Shown piece by piece: positions 10,215 through 39,537 of a stretch of 64,000 nucleotides of DNA. The notes under the pieces were generated by a model. It saw nothing but the letters and a program-made list of their open reading frames with translations, had not been told where the DNA came from and did no database searches. Origin of the DNA: Salinivirgaceae bacterium (GTDB lineage: Bacteria > Bacteroidota > Bacteroidia > Bacteroidales > SZUA-534); assembly GCA_017645945.1 (NCBI GenBank), contig JAGCNL010000053.1:133816-197815 (forward strand), written 5' to 3'. Numbering within the stretch: position 1 is the first letter of the stretch; every line of letters begins with the position of its first letter. A program made the position numbers and the translations under genes.

Positions 10215-10331
10215 TGATTATAAACACAGAGCAAGACAAATATATATAAGTCAGTTGGAAAACGGAAAATGTTTTTTCAAATTCGCTATCAGACATTTGG
10301 AAACAAATATTTTGAACTTAACAATCAATCA

Positions 10332-33227: not shown

Positions 33228-33632
33228 CTACTCCTCTGACCTCCAATCGACAAGCGACAATCCATGCACGCGACTAAATTCGTTGGTATTGTGGGTTACG
33301 AGTGTGGCACCATTGGCAATTGCGATAGCGGCAATGAGCAAATCGTTCGGTCCTATGGCAGTTCCCTTTCGAGTTAGTTGCTCACGGATTTGCCCGTACA
33401 CAACAGCTTCTTTTTCTGTGAACGGGATTATTTTGTAGGGAGCGATAAAATCAAGGTACTGTTTCCTGCGTTTTTCATAATTATCGCTGTGAGCAGCTCC
33501 GAATTCCAATTCTGCCACAACAACAGTCGAAATGGCAATATCCGATGAGTTGTTTTTCTCAAAACAAGCCACAAGATGTGGGTATTTTCCCCTTATGGCA
33601 TCTATAATTACGTTAGTGTCAAGATGAAACAT
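33228..33632 (-). CDS. vapC: VapC-family PIN-domain toxin
   Basis: A 134-residue PIN-domain ribonuclease toxin. The acidic active-site residues are visible: D in MFHLDTNVIID, E in VVAELEFG, D in GPNDLLIAAIA and the C-terminal LVTHNTNEFSRV. VapC toxins of this kind cleave tRNA or rRNA when not bound by antitoxin. The start at 33632 is the canonical one (the antitoxin TGA and this ATG are one base apart). An in-frame ATG at 33656 would add eight residues. It is co-transcribed with the antitoxin upstream. Confidence 0.9.
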   Translation of the reverse strand: MFHLDTNVIIDAIRGKYPHLVACFEKNNSSDIAISTVVVAELEFGAAHSDNYEKRRKQYLDFIAPYKIIPFTEKEAVVYGQIREQLTRKGTAIGPNDLLIAAIAIANGATLVTHNTNEFSRVHGLSLVDWRSEE

Positions 33633-33633
33633 A

Positions 33634-33882
33634 TCAGAAGATTGCTTCGTTTCCATCTAATTCTATGGGTAATTCTTCTGGCTCCTCAAAAAAAGTAGGG
33701 TCACTTCCGAACAAATCGAAATAGCCTTTCGGATAGGAGCTTTGGCAATCCTTCTTCGTGGTTTTTGCTGTTTTCTTCCGCGATTTTCCCGACTTGATGG
33801 CATTCACCAGAACCTCCATCAAGTTCACTTGCTCCTCGTAGGTCATATTGGGAATGGCGTTTGCAATGCTCTCGTAACTCAT
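33634..33882 (-). CDS. VapB-like antitoxin
   Basis: An 82-residue protein with a short helical N-terminus (MSYESIANAIPNMTYEEQVNLMEVLVNAI), a basic linker (KSRKKTAKTTKK) and a C-terminal toxin-binding tail ending in ELPIELDGNEAIF. It lies directly before the PIN toxin, which identifies it as the cognate antitoxin. The sequence alone would not. A promoter element is at 33919-33926. Confidence 0.8.
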   Translation of the reverse strand: MSYESIANAIPNMTYEEQVNLMEVLVNAIKSGKSRKKTAKTTKKDCQSSYPKGYFDLFGSDPTFFEEPEELPIELDGNEAIF

Positions 33883-34004: not shown

Positions 34005-35036
34005 ATGAAAAAGACAATCATCGCCACGCTGCTGGCTGTTGCTACCATCTCTGTGCAGGGACAAGTAAAATACCGACTCGAAGGAAACATCGGCCAGAAT
34101 TATACGGGCACCATGTATATCCGCAATCAGAGCGGCACAAACAACGAAATTGTTGATTCTGTTGAAGTTGTCAACGGCAATATAACGGCTCACAACGGCA
34201 GTTGCGCCAAACCTTTCCTTGGACATCTGGGAACCAAGAATTTCAGCCTGCAAATGGCTCCTTTGTTTATCGACAATGGTGTTATCCGAATTGATATGCA
34301 GAATGGTGCACCAGCCATCGGGACACCGCTGAACAACGACTGGACCAGCCTGTACCGCGAGCTGGTCAAGGCTGTGTCCGACTATCGCAGCAAAAGAATA
34401 TCAGAGGCCGATGCCAAGGCTGCAATGGACAAAAGCATAACACCCATGCTGAAAGCCCACTCCAATGACCCACTGGGATATTTCATTGTAACACAGTTCA
34501 ATGACGCCATAAGTGCACGTCGCGGACTTGAGTATATTGCCATGCTTTCGAGCGACTTGCAGCGCAATGATATGGTGAAACGCATCAAAGCTGACCTTGA
34601 AAAACGCGCCACTACCGAGCCTGGTGCGAAGTTCGTCGATTTTGCCGTGGAGTATAACGGCAAGACCACTCGCCTGTCTGACTATGTTGGCCGAGGCCAG
34701 TATGTGCTTGCCGATTTTTGGGCTTCGTGGTGCGGCCCTTGCCGTCAGGAGATTCCAAACATCAAAGCCGCCTACAGCAAGTACAAAGACCGTGGTTTGC
34801 AGGTGATTGGCATTGCCGCGTGGGACGAACCCCAAGCCACACTGAAAGCTATTGCCGAGGAGCAGATTGAGTATCCGCAAATAATTAATTCACAAAAGAT
34901 TGCCACCGACATCTACGGTATTAGCGGCATTCCGGAGATAATCCTTTTCGCTCCCGACGGCACCATTGTTGCCCGCGGCTTACGCGGCCAGGCCATCGGC
35001 AAAATGCTGGCGGAGATTTTTGATAAGAACGAATGA
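34005..35036 (+). CDS. TlpA-like periplasmic thioredoxin with DUF4369-type N-terminal domain
   Basis: A 343-residue exported protein (signal peptide MKKTIIATLLAVATISVQGQ). The N-terminal ~200 residues look like the beta-rich DUF4369 domain plus helical linker common in Bacteroidota. The C-terminal ~140 residues are a thioredoxin/AhpC-TSA fold with the redox motif FWASWCGPCRQEIPN and the cis-Pro loop GISGIPEIILFAPDG. It probably maintains or reduces periplasmic disulfides, with unknown partner. It lies between two toxin-antitoxin pairs. Confidence 0.9.
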   Translation: MKKTIIATLLAVATISVQGQVKYRLEGNIGQNYTGTMYIRNQSGTNNEIVDSVEVVNGNITAHNGSCAKPFLGHLGTKNFSLQMAPLFIDNGVIRIDMQNGAPAIGTPLNNDWTSLYRELVKAVSDYRSKRISEADAKAAMDKSITPMLKAHSNDPLGYFIVTQFNDAISARRGLEYIAMLSSDLQRNDMVKRIKADLEKRATTEPGAKFVDFAVEYNGKTTRLSDYVGRGQYVLADFWASWCGPCRQEIPNIKAAYSKYKDRGLQVIGIAAWDEPQATLKAIAEEQIEYPQIINSQKIATDIYGISGIPEIILFAPDGTIVARGLRGQAIGKMLAEIFDKNE

Positions 35037-35107
35037 ATAATAATATCAGCGCAAAATGGTTCGCAAATGAAACTTGCAAATCATTTTCATTTCACGCTGA
35101 ACATTTA

Positions 35108-35115
35108 TATTTTTG
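35108..35115 (+). promoter_or_regulatory. -7 element for the second toxin-antitoxin pair
   Basis: TATTTTTG matches TAnnTTTG and lies 17 bases before the antitoxin ATG. A TTTC at 35084-35087 sits 20 bases upstream in place of the -33 TTTG. Confidence 0.45.
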
Positions 35116-35131
35116 CAAAAACAGCAACAGT

Positions 35132-35368
35132 ATGACAACAGCACAACTTAACAGCGAAATCTGGCATAGTATGAGTATTATTGCTGACGATGAAGGACTT
35201 ATGCGCCGCGCCGCAAAATACTTGCGCAATTTGGCTGCCGAAAAAACAGCGGACCCGACAGAAATGAGCCGCGAGGATTTTTTTGCACGCGTTGATGCCG
35301 CAAAAAAAGGCAAATCAAAGGCATTCTCTAATGTTGCCGAACTCGACAATTATATCCGCAGCCTATGA
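35132..35368 (+). CDS. Antitoxin of a YoeB/Txe-type pair
   Basis: A 78-residue protein (MTTAQLNSEIWHSMSIIADD...) with an N-terminal helical region and a C-terminal tail (SKAFSNVAELDNYIRSL). It overlaps the toxin start by four bases (ATGA), which assigns it as antitoxin. The in-frame region upstream (from 35033) contains the promoter and is not taken as coding. The family is not certain; it does not show a clear YefM/Phd beta-sheet start. Confidence 0.75.
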   Translation: MTTAQLNSEIWHSMSIIADDEGLMRRAAKYLRNLAAEKTADPTEMSREDFFARVDAAKKGKSKAFSNVAELDNYIRSL

Positions 35369-35643
35369 GCCAGTATAATGTCGAGATTATGGAACAGGCT
35401 CAAGCCGACCTTAAACAACTATTGAAAAATGAACCTAACGCCTATAAGAAGGCATTGAAATTAATTGGAGAACTATATGAACATCCACGCACAGGCACTG
35501 GACATCCTGAAGCATTGAGCAGTGACCGTGCTGGACAATGGAGCCGCCACATTACAAAGAAACACAGACTGATATATGAAATCCATGATAGTGATGTGGT
35601 TGTTTTAGTTCTCACCGCCTACGGCCACTACGGCGACAAATAA
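35365..35643 (+). CDS. YoeB/Txe-family mRNA interferase toxin
   Basis: A 92-residue RelE-fold toxin that cuts mRNA on the ribosome. The family pattern is complete: QAQADLKQLLKNEP, KALKLIGELYEHPRTGTGHPE, WSRHITKKHRLIYEI and the C-terminal AYGHYGDK, in which the His-Tyr pair matches the catalytic end of YoeB. It is translationally coupled to its antitoxin and closed by a terminator at 35650. Confidence 0.92.
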   Translation: MSQYNVEIMEQAQADLKQLLKNEPNAYKKALKLIGELYEHPRTGTGHPEALSSDRAGQWSRHITKKHRLIYEIHDSDVVVLVLTAYGHYGDK

Positions 35644-35649
35644 ATCTGA

Positions 35650-35682
35650 AATCGACAATCGCACTTGTCGATTTTGTTTTTC
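35650..35682 (+). terminator. Rho-independent terminator after the YoeB-like toxin
   Basis: A perfect 9-bp stem (AATCGACAA / TTGTCGATT) with a six-base loop is followed by a T-rich tail, seven bases after the toxin stop codon. Confidence 0.88.
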
Positions 35683-35724: not shown

Positions 35725-35998
35725 TACCTTTGTCTTGCTATGCGTTTTATGCCGCAAAGCGTATTATGCAGAGTGACATATAGAAAGACGTTTACTGACG
35801 TTTTCCTTTGGCGGACCAAAATCTCGCAAGTTTTGAAACTCAGTCAAAGAGAAAGCAATTGTGAACGCCTGCGTTAGTGTATATTGACCTATCAATCAAT
35901 ATATTCTTGCGTGGGCTTCGCGTTGCTCAATCTTACTGAGTTAGGCAATGCGAGAGCCGTGGTCCGTGGGAGCGAGTAACAGGATTCCCACGTTTTTT
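35725..35998 (+). ncRNA. Candidate structured leader or small RNA with its own promoter and terminator
   Basis: TACCTTTG (35725-35732) is a -7 match. The ~260 bases after it contain several hairpins: ATATTGA/TCAATAT (35881-35902), a bulged 12-13 bp stem from about 35917 to 35956 (GGCTTCGCGTTGC with GCAATGCGAGAGCC), and the terminator stem CGTGGGA/TCCCACG at 35965-35992 followed by six T. A second CGTGGG at 35910-35915 could pair with the same CCCACG, so two exclusive folds are possible. A 46-codon frame (35739-35877, starting MRFMPQS) lies within, but I see no evidence that it is a conserved protein. It may be a regulated leader of the surface-protein gene at 36106, or an independent small RNA. 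Confidence 0.5.
35965..35998 (+). terminator. Intrinsic terminator between the leader and the surface-protein gene
   Basis: A perfect 7-bp stem (CGTGGGA / TCCCACG) with a 14-base loop is followed by TTTTTT. It lies 108 bases before the next start codon, and no protein gene ends just before it. Confidence 0.8.
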
Positions 35999-36105
35999 AT
36001 ATGCATAGCCATCAAACGTTTTTTTCATTGCCTGACTGGGGAGTCGCAAGCACAAATTTTTGTTTAACAAGAAGTTGCACACGACACGAACAAGTGTAAC
36101 AGACA

Positions 36106-39100
36106 ATGAAAAAGTTGTTCGCTTTTTTATTCGGAGTTACGCTTGTCGGACAGGCGTGGGCGCAGACAACAACTATTCTGCGGCAAGATGATAATCAAAC
36201 AGCCGCTTGTTATTTCTCTAGCAATTACTTCCAGTTTGATTTTAATAATGGCGCGAGTTTTGAAATATCGTATGATGGTGTAATTATTTCTTCTACAGAA
36301 TGTTCCCCTGTTGAAGAATACAGCGCTACTTTTGGTGCTTGTGTTAGGAATTTCGTGAAAAATGGCGCGACCATAGAATTCGATTTGCTTGATGGCGAAT
36401 ACTCAACAACCCAATTTGCCCATTATATTACGAGATTCCCTGTGGCAGTTTCGGCGTTTGCTGAAAATGGAATTGTTAGCATAGAAGGCTCTAACGCGGT
36501 TGGTCAAACAATTACTCTCACTGTTACACCAAACGATGATTACGAGTTTAATTGCTGGAGCGATGGCAATACCGACAATCCGCGCACTATTAATATCACA
36601 AGTAACATGGATTTGAAAGCCGTTTGTCTGACAGAAGGACAAACACTTGTCAATTTGACCGTTACGGCTGGTGAGAACGGAACAGTATCAGGAGGTGGTG
36701 TTTATGGAAGTGGTATTGCGGCCTCGTTGCGAGCCACACCAAATACGGGTTACCATTTTGTGCGTTGGAGTGATGGTAACACCGATAATCCACGCACAGT
36801 TGCTGTTTCTGAAGATGCAACATTTACTGCCGAATTTGAAGAGCATACTGTTGTTATAGATGATGCCGCTGAGCCACCCACCACATTGCCTGGATATGGC
36901 TATAGCGAAGGCTCACATTGTTCTGTTTGTGGAGTAACTATAAATCAAGGAAATTATACTTATTGGAAGCAAATAACGACGTCTGCCGAAAATGGAAGTG
37001 TAAGTGGCGCAGGTATTTATTATTATGGCCAAACTGTTACGCTCACAGCAACACCTAACGAAGGCTGCTCTTTCAATTGCTGGAGCGATGGAAACACAGA
37101 AAACCCACGCACTGTATCAATTGACTGGGGAAGCGAAAATTCGGATTATAAAGCCATTTGCTTGACAGAAGGACAAACCATTGCCAATTTAACAGTATCG
37201 GCAGGCAACAATGGAACAGCAACTGGTGGCGGTGCTTTTATTAGCGGAACAGAAACAACATTTACATTGCAAGCCACACCCAACACAGGCTACCATTTTG
37301 TGCGTTGGAGTGATGGCAATACCAGTAATCCACGTACTGTTGCAGTTACCGAAAACGCAACATTTACTGCCGAATTTGAAGAGCATACTATTGTTATAGA
37401 TGCCGCCGAACCACCAACCACACTGCCTGGTTATGGTTATACTGAAGGTTCGCATTGTTCTGTTTGTGGAGTAACTATAAATCAACAAAATTATACTTCT
37501 GATTGGAAGCAAATAACAACGTCTGCCGAAAATGGAAGTGTAAGTGGCGCAGGTATTTGTCATTATGGCCAAACTGTTACGCTCACAGCAACACCTAACG
37601 AAGGCTGCACTTTCAGTTGCTGGAGCGATGGAAACACTGACAACCCACGAACTGTATCAATTGACTGGGTAGATTATAAAGCCATTTGCTTGACAGAAGG
37701 ACAAACCATTGCCAATTTAACAGTATCTGCAGGCAACAATGGAACAGCAACTGGTGGCGGTGCTTTTATTAGCGGAACAGAAACAACATTTACATTGCAA
37801 GCCAAGCCCAATACAGGTTACCATTTTGTGCGCTGGAGTGATGGTAACACTGATAATCCTCGTACTCTGACAGTTTCCACTGATAAGACACTAACAGCAG
37901 AGTTTGAAGCACATAACGCTGTTATAGATGCTGCTGTGCCAGCAGGAACCAGACCTGGTTTGACGCAAGGTTCGCATTGCTCTGTTTGCAATATGGTTAT
38001 GGAACCACAAGAAATAATTTATATAATAGGAGTTTATAGTTTCGAAATACATGGAGAGGACTATCACCCAGAAGTAAACCATGGCAATGATGATAGGTTT
38101 ATTGAACCTGATAGCCCAGTTTTCGCTATAAACACTTATGAAACCGATGTAAATGGTTGGGATTCTCAATTCTTTATTGTATTTGCTAATGAGAATGATG
38201 CACTTAGGGCGGATAATACGATTTCATTAAAATTTGAGTATAAAAGAACGGGCAGGGCAGCATTAAGTCTTATTCAAATTCACAGTACCCCACACCACGA
38301 TGCTAATACTTTTTTTGGTGTTTCTGCAGGAACTACTGAAGAATGGCAAACCTATGAGGAATCGTTTGAAATAAATTCGTCATATTATTCTGATGGGTAT
38401 CGTACCATTGCAATTGACGCTTCAACAGGCGAGAATGGAACTCTTCTATTGCGCAATATTGTAGTGAAAGTAAATGGAAATGAAGTGTTTAATACAATAA
38501 GTCCTACGGAGGAGTTTGCCATAGTTGCCGCAACCAATAGCGACACATACGGCAGCGCCGAAGTTATTGGCAAAACCACTTATAACAGCGAAGTCTCACT
38601 CAAAGCCACGCCTAACACTGGCTATCACTTTGTTAGTTGGAACGATGGCAATACGGAGAATCCACGCACTATAACAGTTACTGGCAACGCAGCATATACT
38701 GCTAATTTTGAGATAGATAATTATAATGTGTCGGCAACAGCCGATGCAACCACTGGCAATGCCTTTTGCAGTGCTTCGAAAGCCGACTATGGCAGCAACG
38801 TAACATTCTATGCCATACCCAAATACGGCTATTTCTTTAAAAACTGGAGCAATGGCAGCACTGCGGCAATGCAAAACGTAACCATTTCGGGCAATACAAC
38901 TCTAACCGCAATTTTTGAGCAATATCCGCCTGTTATCGTGAAAGATACAGTTATTCGTGACACAATAAAAGTGGAAGTGGAAGTGCCAGTGCCTATCGAA
39001 GTTGTAAAGGATACGGTCATTCATGATACACTAAAAGTTGATGTGTTAAAAACAGACACATTATATCTTCAAGAAAAAATCATCCGTGATACTGTTTTTG

Positions 39101-39537
39101 CAACCAAAACCGATACTCTTATCTATTACAAAGATGTAAAAATTGTGCACGACACGGTTAAAATCGAAATAGCCGTTCACGACACTGTATTAAACACCGT
39201 TCTTGACACCGTTTTCAATACCATTCACGATATTGTTGAAAACAAAATATTTATTCACGACACAATCTACATCACCAAAACCGACACTATTTATCTGCAA
39301 ACATCAGTTTCAGATTCAAAAGCCATCGGTTTGAGCATTTATCCGAATCCAACAGCATCGTTTGTAACGGTAACAGGCGAAGGGGTGTTTGGGTATGTGC
39401 TAACCAACGCTAACGGCAAAGTATTGCGTAAAGAGGAAGATGCCGCATCGTATATTGTTGATTTGTCGGAATATGCAGATGGTATTTATTTGCTGCACAC
39501 ATCAGATGGCATAACGCATAAGATTGTGAAGCAATGA
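36106..39537 (+). CDS. Large type IX-secreted InlB-type repeat surface protein
   Basis: A 1143-residue exported protein. Signal peptide MKKLFAFLFGVTLVGQAWAQ is followed by at least eight divergent InlB B-repeat units (PNTGYHFVRWSDGNTDNPRT and similar). These are interleaved with three cysteine-bearing segments (GSHCSVCGVTINQ, GSHCSVCNMVM). A region near 640-800 looks like a carbohydrate-binding jelly roll. Then comes a ~130-residue stalk built on DTV/HDT motifs (VKDTVIRDTIKV, VHDTVKIEIAVHDTV). The end (IYPNPTASFVTVTG ... GIYLLHTSDGITHKIVKQ) is a type A sorting domain of the type IX secretion system. It is probably a cell-surface adhesin or filament. Two ~530-bp DNA blocks from about 36900 are nearly identical, suggesting recent internal duplication. 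Confidence 0.9.
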   Translation: MKKLFAFLFGVTLVGQAWAQTTTILRQDDNQTAACYFSSNYFQFDFNNGASFEISYDGVIISSTECSPVEEYSATFGACVRNFVKNGATIEFDLLDGEYSTTQFAHYITRFPVAVSAFAENGIVSIEGSNAVGQTITLTVTPNDDYEFNCWSDGNTDNPRTINITSNMDLKAVCLTEGQTLVNLTVTAGENGTVSGGGVYGSGIAASLRATPNTGYHFVRWSDGNTDNPRTVAVSEDATFTAEFEEHTVVIDDAAEPPTTLPGYGYSEGSHCSVCGVTINQGNYTYWKQITTSAENGSVSGAGIYYYGQTVTLTATPNEGCSFNCWSDGNTENPRTVSIDWGSENSDYKAICLTEGQTIANLTVSAGNNGTATGGGAFISGTETTFTLQATPNTGYHFVRWSDGNTSNPRTVAVTENATFTAEFEEHTIVIDAAEPPTTLPGYGYTEGSHCSVCGVTINQQNYTSDWKQITTSAENGSVSGAGICHYGQTVTLTATPNEGCTFSCWSDGNTDNPRTVSIDWVDYKAICLTEGQTIANLTVSAGNNGTATGGGAFISGTETTFTLQAKPNTGYHFVRWSDGNTDNPRTLTVSTDKTLTAEFEAHNAVIDAAVPAGTRPGLTQGSHCSVCNMVMEPQEIIYIIGVYSFEIHGEDYHPEVNHGNDDRFIEPDSPVFAINTYETDVNGWDSQFFIVFANENDALRADNTISLKFEYKRTGRAALSLIQIHSTPHHDANTFFGVSAGTTEEWQTYEESFEINSSYYSDGYRTIAIDASTGENGTLLLRNIVVKVNGNEVFNTISPTEEFAIVAATNSDTYGSAEVIGKTTYNSEVSLKATPNTGYHFVSWNDGNTENPRTITVTGNAAYTANFEIDNYNVSATADATTGNAFCSASKADYGSNVTFYAIPKYGYFFKNWSNGSTAAMQNVTISGNTTLTAIFEQYPPVIVKDTVIRDTIKVEVEVPVPIEVVKDTVIHDTLKVDVLKTDTLYLQEKIIRDTVFATKTDTLIYYKDVKIVHDTVKIEIAVHDTVLNTVLDTVFNTIHDIVENKIFIHDTIYITKTDTIYLQTSVSDSKAIGLSIYPNPTASFVTVTGEGVFGYVLTNANGKVLRKEEDAASYIVDLSEYADGIYLLHTSDGITHKIVKQ

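Follow-up and report, generated by a model that had tools for sequence, protein, structure and literature searches.

In c-di-GMP (GEMM) riboswitches, many copies per genome precede surface genes and otherwise unrelated genes. Riboswitches of the cobalamin, purine and lysine types join a kissing-loop aptamer to an intrinsic-terminator platform. In the UpxY-regulated capsule leaders of Bacteroides, premature termination takes place within long 5′ leaders of surface-structure operons (PMC7819879). Structured RNAs of the same phylum are Bacteroidales-1 (RF01693) and 6S-flavo (RF01685) (PMC2864571). The DUF805 RNA (RF03081) is cis-regulatory by its Rfam type. The RNA studied here is located in the window, i.e. 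the whole stretch of 64,000 nucleotides of Salinivirgaceae DNA that was analyzed, upstream of a gene for a large secreted protein (Table 1). It belongs to a previously uncatalogued RNA family which matches no family of Rfam 15. Judging from the covariation of its homologues, the RNA forms a junction of four helices which a kissing loop closes, and it is best read as an orphan transcription-attenuation switch with a riboswitch-like build.

Table 1. Elements of the RNA, its promoter and the gene behind it (window positions)
Feature	Position	Strand	Basis
-7 promoter element TAnnTTTG (TACCTTTG)	35725..35732	+	sequence; same position in 117/143 homologues
P1, variable 5′ hairpin	35741..35770	+	fold; equivalent hairpins in the other copies of this genome
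ACATA motif in the P1-P2 interval	35776..35780	+	88/143 homologues vs ~6 expected
P2 hairpin (AAAGACGTTTACTGACGTTTTC); 3′ strand doubles as Z5	35784..35805	+	-6.4 kcal/mol; CGTT core in 129/143 homologues
Z5, alternative to P2; possible extension of helix E via the terminator 5′ arm region	35801..35811	+	covariation z -7.3, control -2.5
Helix E, 5′ strand (partner 35961-35966); closes the four-way junction	35812..35817	+	99% of cells paired; z -48, control -17
Hairpin K; loop UCUCGCA (35822-35828) kisses the loop of H	35817..35835	+	covariation
Helix D, 5′ strand (partner 35935-35942)	35837..35844	+	96.8% paired; z -59
F5, upstream partner of the switch strand; predicted antiterminator strand	35855..35873	+	94-99% paired; z -20, control -4
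G, variable apical hairpin; missing in the short class	35874..35907	+	fold; alignments
Switch strand F3; partner F5 or the 3′ arm (as A5 35909-35915 and B5 35922-35928)	35908..35928	+	covariation
Helix D, 3′ strand	35935..35942	+	covariation
Hairpin H, loop AAUGCGAGA; kissing partner of K	35943..35959	+	stem 95% paired; kissing pairs
Helix E, 3′ strand	35961..35966	+	covariation
Local terminator hairpin T, from the second CGTGGG	35965..35992	+	-11.0 kcal/mol; ≥5 bp in 112/148
B3 (GAGTAAC), partner of B5; surrounding segment is the alternative partner of Z5	35974..35980	+	covariation
A3 (CCCACGT), terminator 3′ arm; partner A5 or, shifted 5′, X3	35987..35993	+	helix A ≥5 bp in 147/148
U-run of the predicted intrinsic terminator (TTTTTT)	35993..35998	+	sequence; U-run in 138/148 homologues
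X3 (GGGAGTC), post-terminator; predicted to pair with GATTCCC (35983-35989) after read-through	36039..36045	+	covariation z -14.7
Led gene: 1143-aa secreted protein with InlB-type B repeats and T9SS sorting tail	36106..39537	+	Pfam PF18998, PF18962; TIGR04183

The original prediction of a structured RNA of about 260 nucleotides that contains no convincing gene was borne out on both points. The segment 35739-35998 folds with -101.1 kcal/mol, compared to -65.7 ± 4.1 kcal/mol for dinucleotide shuffles (z = -8.65), and none of 200 shuffled sequences folded as well. The antisense strand of the RNA folded less well (z = -5.1). A leader peptide was rejected because the open frame of the window is common only to near relatives and broken in homologues, as revealed by sequence inspection. 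Direct reading of the sequence placed the -7 element, the two CGTGGG segments (35910-35915 and 35965-35970), CCCACG (35987-35992) and the U-run exactly where they had been reported. The covariance-model search of Rfam 15 gave no match of the window RNA at the gathering score and none credible up to E 10, and the tested homologues had no match at the positions of the RNA. Thus, it falls into no described riboswitch class of Rfam. In the open-access literature, no earlier description of the RNA was found; an unnamed earlier entry may exist in supplementary motif lists (e.g. PMC8040213).

About 195 homologues were collected, in which the pairing is preserved by massive compensatory change. In 99 aligned homologues, 94.4% of the cells of the nested structure are paired (38-52% for slid partners) with a covariation score of 0.58 (0.06-0.09 in controls) and both-side changes at 42 of 47 pairs, where the counts lean towards the nested structure since the alignment was fitted to it (E, K, D, F, H, T). 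The kissing loop and the helices A, B, Z and X are all outside the covariance model. A second set of 98 sequences outside model building revealed 92.1% paired cells and a score of 0.54, hairpin H being uninformative there because this set was found by a pattern fixing H. The core comprises the closing helix E, with double changes at all six pairs, hairpin K, helix D, which bears the apical stem F/G and shows double changes at all eight pairs, and hairpin H. The stems of K and H are short yet covarying; those of K have 4-10 bp in nearly all homologues checked. The minimum-energy fold is a plain rod, which was replaced by a four-way junction with a kissing loop due to the covariation of the K and H stems and loops. 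Between the two loops (UCUCGCA with UGCGAGA), 99.4% of the cells are paired, and compensated changes occur in up to 32 sequences per pair. The kissing loop taken together with helices A and B gave 94.3% paired cells and a score of 0.28 (0.05-0.08 in controls). In divergent homologues, the kissing pair can be followed by eye: CTTGGAA with TTCCAAG in L086, CCTCGAAA with TTTCGAGG in L084 and TCTGGTAAA with TTTACCAGA in L100. Hence, a conserved structured domain, in which E, K, D, H and the kissing loop covary, lies apart from the expression platform, as in riboswitches.

The strand F3 (35908-35928) pairs upstream with F5. Alternatively, it can pair with the segment ending at the U-run, where GCGTGGG and CCCACGT make up helix A and GTTGCTC and GAGTAAC helix B; the strand is thereby common to the terminator hairpin and a competing helix. 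Permutation of partners among 148 representatives yielded z values of -20 (F), -11 (A) and -16 (B), compared to -4, -2.5 and -7 for reversed-strand controls, which keep relatedness and composition; as these controls reach z values of -2 to -17, the permutations are not phylogeny-free. Helix A is paired to 94-96% and helix B to 88%. Together with an adjacent helix of 7-12 bp, helix A builds a long hairpin of the terminator type that runs up to the U-run, which directly follows helix A in 138 of the 148 homologues. In the window, the A/B hairpin has -38.6 kcal/mol, F/G -32.5 kcal/mol and the local hairpin -11.0 kcal/mol. On the strength of covariation, the alternative helices are mutually exclusive.

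It had been suggested that one CGTGGG forms the terminator with CCCACG and that the other one removes it. Both pairings recur with at least 5 bp, the first in 147 and the second in 112 of 148 representatives, so that the pairing of CGTGGG is real, but the roles assigned to the two segments did not hold. The first CGTGGG is the near-universal partner of CCCACG, whereas the second one is not its conserved partner; it contributes an extra local hairpin in most members and is missing in the short class. Not the second CGTGGG but the apical stem's upstream strand competes with the terminator. To a more weakly supported degree, an extension of the closing helix may compete with the terminator as well: the segment 5′ of helix E, which is also part of P2, can extend E into the 5′ arm of the terminator (Z; z = -7.3, control -2.5). 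This extension has moderate support and its pairing is weak in the window copy.

Covariation extends beyond the terminator. Its 3′ arm (nnnTCCCA) covaries with TGGGAnnn located 20-50 nt past the U-run (z = -14.7, controls about -4), while other segments of the RNA gave z values of about 0 against the same downstream stretch. Examples of this helix X are TACAATCCC/GGGATTGTG (L093), CGGCTCC/GGAGCCG (L081) and TAACTCCCA/TGGGAGTTG (L210). As the X segment is present only in read-through transcripts, the RNA would work as part of an mRNA. On the other hand, X is made after the U-run and cannot itself decide on termination. In the simplest view, X would lock the fold reached on read-through, but its covariation could reflect a translational role instead. 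A helix with post-terminator sequence is unusual and makes the idea of a kinetic lock directly testable. A DUF805 RNA was considered for the post-terminator motif and rejected, as there is no match in the window. In one related locus, a Rfam DUF805 RNA is situated directly between the U-run and the gene (L101:704-773) and DUF805b further on (L101:2759-2791); here, two different leader elements occur in series. Another locus with a copy of the RNA also contains an abiF RNA (RF03085; L139:1254-1290).

The motif TAnnTTTG was detected 60-130 nt ahead of the core in 117 of 143 homologues, compared to 21 scattered occurrences in total in the control region, and a block of about 48 nt around the promoter is conserved among copies. 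By this pattern, the RNA has its own promoter of the Bacteroides type, and the transcript is expected to start near 35738-35740. RNA and next gene share the strand at 90 of 93 loci of the first set and at 96 of 104 loci of the second set. Overall, 186 next genes have the same and 11 the opposite orientation, several of the latter looking like spurious ORF calls; the RNA thus occupies the position of a same-strand 5′ leader, as attenuators do. The median gap between RNA and gene is 67.5 nt (second set). Upstream neighbours are random in direction (53/42). The attenuator or riboswitch layout put forward originally is thereby upheld by covariation in about 195 homologues, the same-strand gene and the fixed promoter; the original interpretation as a whole is partly supported.

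The downstream genes share no pathway. They encode surface proteins, lipoproteins, kinases, TerD, restriction-modification systems and small HTH proteins, besides FHA, UvrD, type III methyltransferases, vWA, DUF2971, BACON and FkbH-like enzymes. A metabolic theme was rejected, since BspA LRR proteins account for 14 of 126 downstream proteins and the others are scattered. By a crude rule, secreted-looking proteins are moderately enriched downstream (55%, compared to 33% of other genes at the same loci). A recurrent HTH-like protein of about 70 aa follows the RNA at L011, L065, L103, L091, L155, L175, L213 and L149; it is possibly a cognate regulator. The promoter block also occurs alone (80-90% identical) at 10222-10269 of the window (minus strand) and at L005:1501-1548, L006:1501-1541 and L007:1501-1548. 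In L005-L007, the genes behind it are of the toxin-antitoxin and KilA-N/ORF6N types, which looks as though a single kind of promoter were common to accessory cassettes. Upstream of the RNA, the window harbors two toxin-antitoxin modules, a VapC/PIN pair and a YoeB-type pair (33228-33882 and 35033-35643), and a separate terminator-like hairpin with T-run (35647-35676), shortly ahead of the promoter, ends the YoeB-type gene. In related genomes, many copies of the RNA have GNAT, zeta or PIN modules as neighbours, which in some cases separate the RNA from its gene (L025, L045).

DNA searches revealed further full-length copies in the same genome and up to ten copies per genome in relatives of the genus. 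A covariance model (R1) was built from 29 copies and has 196 positions. It matched in 11 of 11 genomes of the genus, where the matches listed reach about 14 in a genome (a few being antisense echoes), and in at least 56 of 295 genomes sampled from the order Bacteroidales; due to fast filters and scoring caps, these genome counts are lower bounds. With the same filters, R1 had no match in 295 further genomes of a phylum-level sample. By a DNA pattern scan, at least 117 stretches were found in GTDB species genomes (named or MAG), nearly all labelled Bacteroidales. Named carriers include Bacteroides caecigallinarum, B. bouchesdurhonensis, Paraprevotella clara and Prevotella ihumii. A MAG labelled Lachnospiraceae, probably misbinned, also contains one match (L198:4707-4944). 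A plasmid- or phage-borne element was rejected because plasmid and phage collections gave no match and only three viral-labelled contigs (L246, L247, L248) contain the RNA; these may be prophage or mislabelled host DNA. In a short class with a core of about 145 nt (L084-L091, L094, L095, L100-L102), neither the apical hairpin nor the second CGTGGG is present; this class offers a useful minimal form for experiments. At L018:1450-2299, a tandem pair of copies about 550 nt apart precedes a TerD gene.

By the sequence-based evidence taken together, the RNA is probably a cis-acting leader which controls the downstream gene by transcription attenuation. Transcription would start from the promoter at 35725, and the compact domain (E, K, D and H, held by the K-H kissing loop) would be the likely sensing part, a role suggested by its build alone. 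As long as F3 stays with F5, the terminator strand would be free and transcription would read on, whereupon the free arm could be captured by X beyond the U-run and the ON fold locked. If the 3′ strand, which is made late, captures F3 by A and B, in the genus with the help of the local hairpin T, a long hairpin would arise at the U-run and stop transcription. Which fold is probably ON can be told from the U-run lying immediately behind helix A; the U-run would terminate transcription, and a signal would presumably shift the balance of the folds. Some points count against attenuation. In the genus, hairpin T can form alongside F5-F3; F by itself may thus not be enough to avoid termination, and the weaker Z extension would be needed. 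Moreover, no pathway is common to the downstream genes; this points to a signal of a general kind (second messenger, stress) or to a factor, e.g. a NusG paralogue. A small signalling molecule appears slightly more likely than a protein factor, though a small-molecule switch as such can be proposed only tentatively. With similar caution, the RNA may be regarded as a new class of signal-sensing riboswitch, possibly for an alarmone or second messenger. It would act as a general ON/OFF leader with a post-terminator ON lock, and the accessory genes under its control in gut and rumen Bacteroidales would comprise adhesins, lipoproteins and genes for stress and anti-phage functions.

Other explanations have to be weighed against this. 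The folded domain might dock an RNA-binding or NusG-like factor by which the polymerase passes the terminator, as exemplified by UpxY on B. fragilis capsule leaders and by LoaP and the put/EAR RNAs elsewhere. A factor aiding accessory operons would fit the diverse, often surface or accessory, downstream genes, one copy precedes a flippase-like gene (L240), and UpxY does prevent premature termination in 5′ leaders of Bacteroides (PMC7819879). However, the co-evolving strands with two partners look like a self-contained RNA switch, which makes protein-dependent antitermination rather unlikely. RfaH-type and UpxY leaders are not known to need a large kissing-loop domain. It is less probable still that the alternative folds and the X hairpin near the start codon control ribosome access and not termination. 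Such a translational switch would agree with X lying 20-60 nt ahead of the ATG together with a hairpin that surrounds it (z = -9.3, control -2.7), whereas a U-run immediately behind helix A is the hallmark of intrinsic termination.

The original prediction had also allowed for a free small RNA, possibly 6S-like, and this part is not supported. Its own promoter and terminator, the strong fold and the multiple copies would suit a terminated RNA with a function in trans, for which read-through into the gene would be merely incidental. Yet a same-strand gene lies close downstream in nearly every copy, and the conserved helix tying the terminator arm to post-terminator sequence would be useless to a terminated RNA, so this explanation is very improbable. 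Virtually nothing speaks for a 6S-like RNA binding RNA polymerase apart from its size and the rod-like minimum-energy fold: neither the window RNA nor the tested homologues matched a covariance model of any 6S family, 6S-flavo included, covariation favours the kissing-loop junction over a rod with a central bubble, and the many divergent copies per genome (up to about 14 among those listed), nearly all leading a gene, contrast with the one or two free-standing copies expected for 6S.

If transcription attenuation by a common signal is correct, a single RNA absent from the catalogues places dozens of unrelated accessory genes under this signal in dominant gut bacteria (Bacteroides, Prevotella, Paraprevotella and relatives of Muribaculaceae). 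The identity of the signal would then reveal the cue to which these bacteria respond in bringing adhesins and defence genes into use, and the RNA could serve as a regulatory part for work on gut Bacteroidales. Compared to described systems, it has no covariance-model match with Bacteroidales-1 or 6S-flavo, and the DUF805 RNA, much smaller and different in structure, stands outside the family. The UpxY-regulated leaders are found in the same order and likewise combine termination with surface operons, but they are not known to carry this RNA. The c-di-GMP riboswitches are analogous in the breadth of their regulon, while their sequence, size and fold differ. Similar in architecture are the cobalamin, purine and lysine riboswitches, with which the RNA shares the location in a leader, a junction held by loop-loop contact, the mutually exclusive terminator and antiterminator, and the occurrence in multiple copies. 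What separates it from them is the missing match to a Rfam class, the downstream genes without a metabolic theme, the distribution, as found here, within Bacteroidales only, and the additional helix formed with sequence beyond the terminator.
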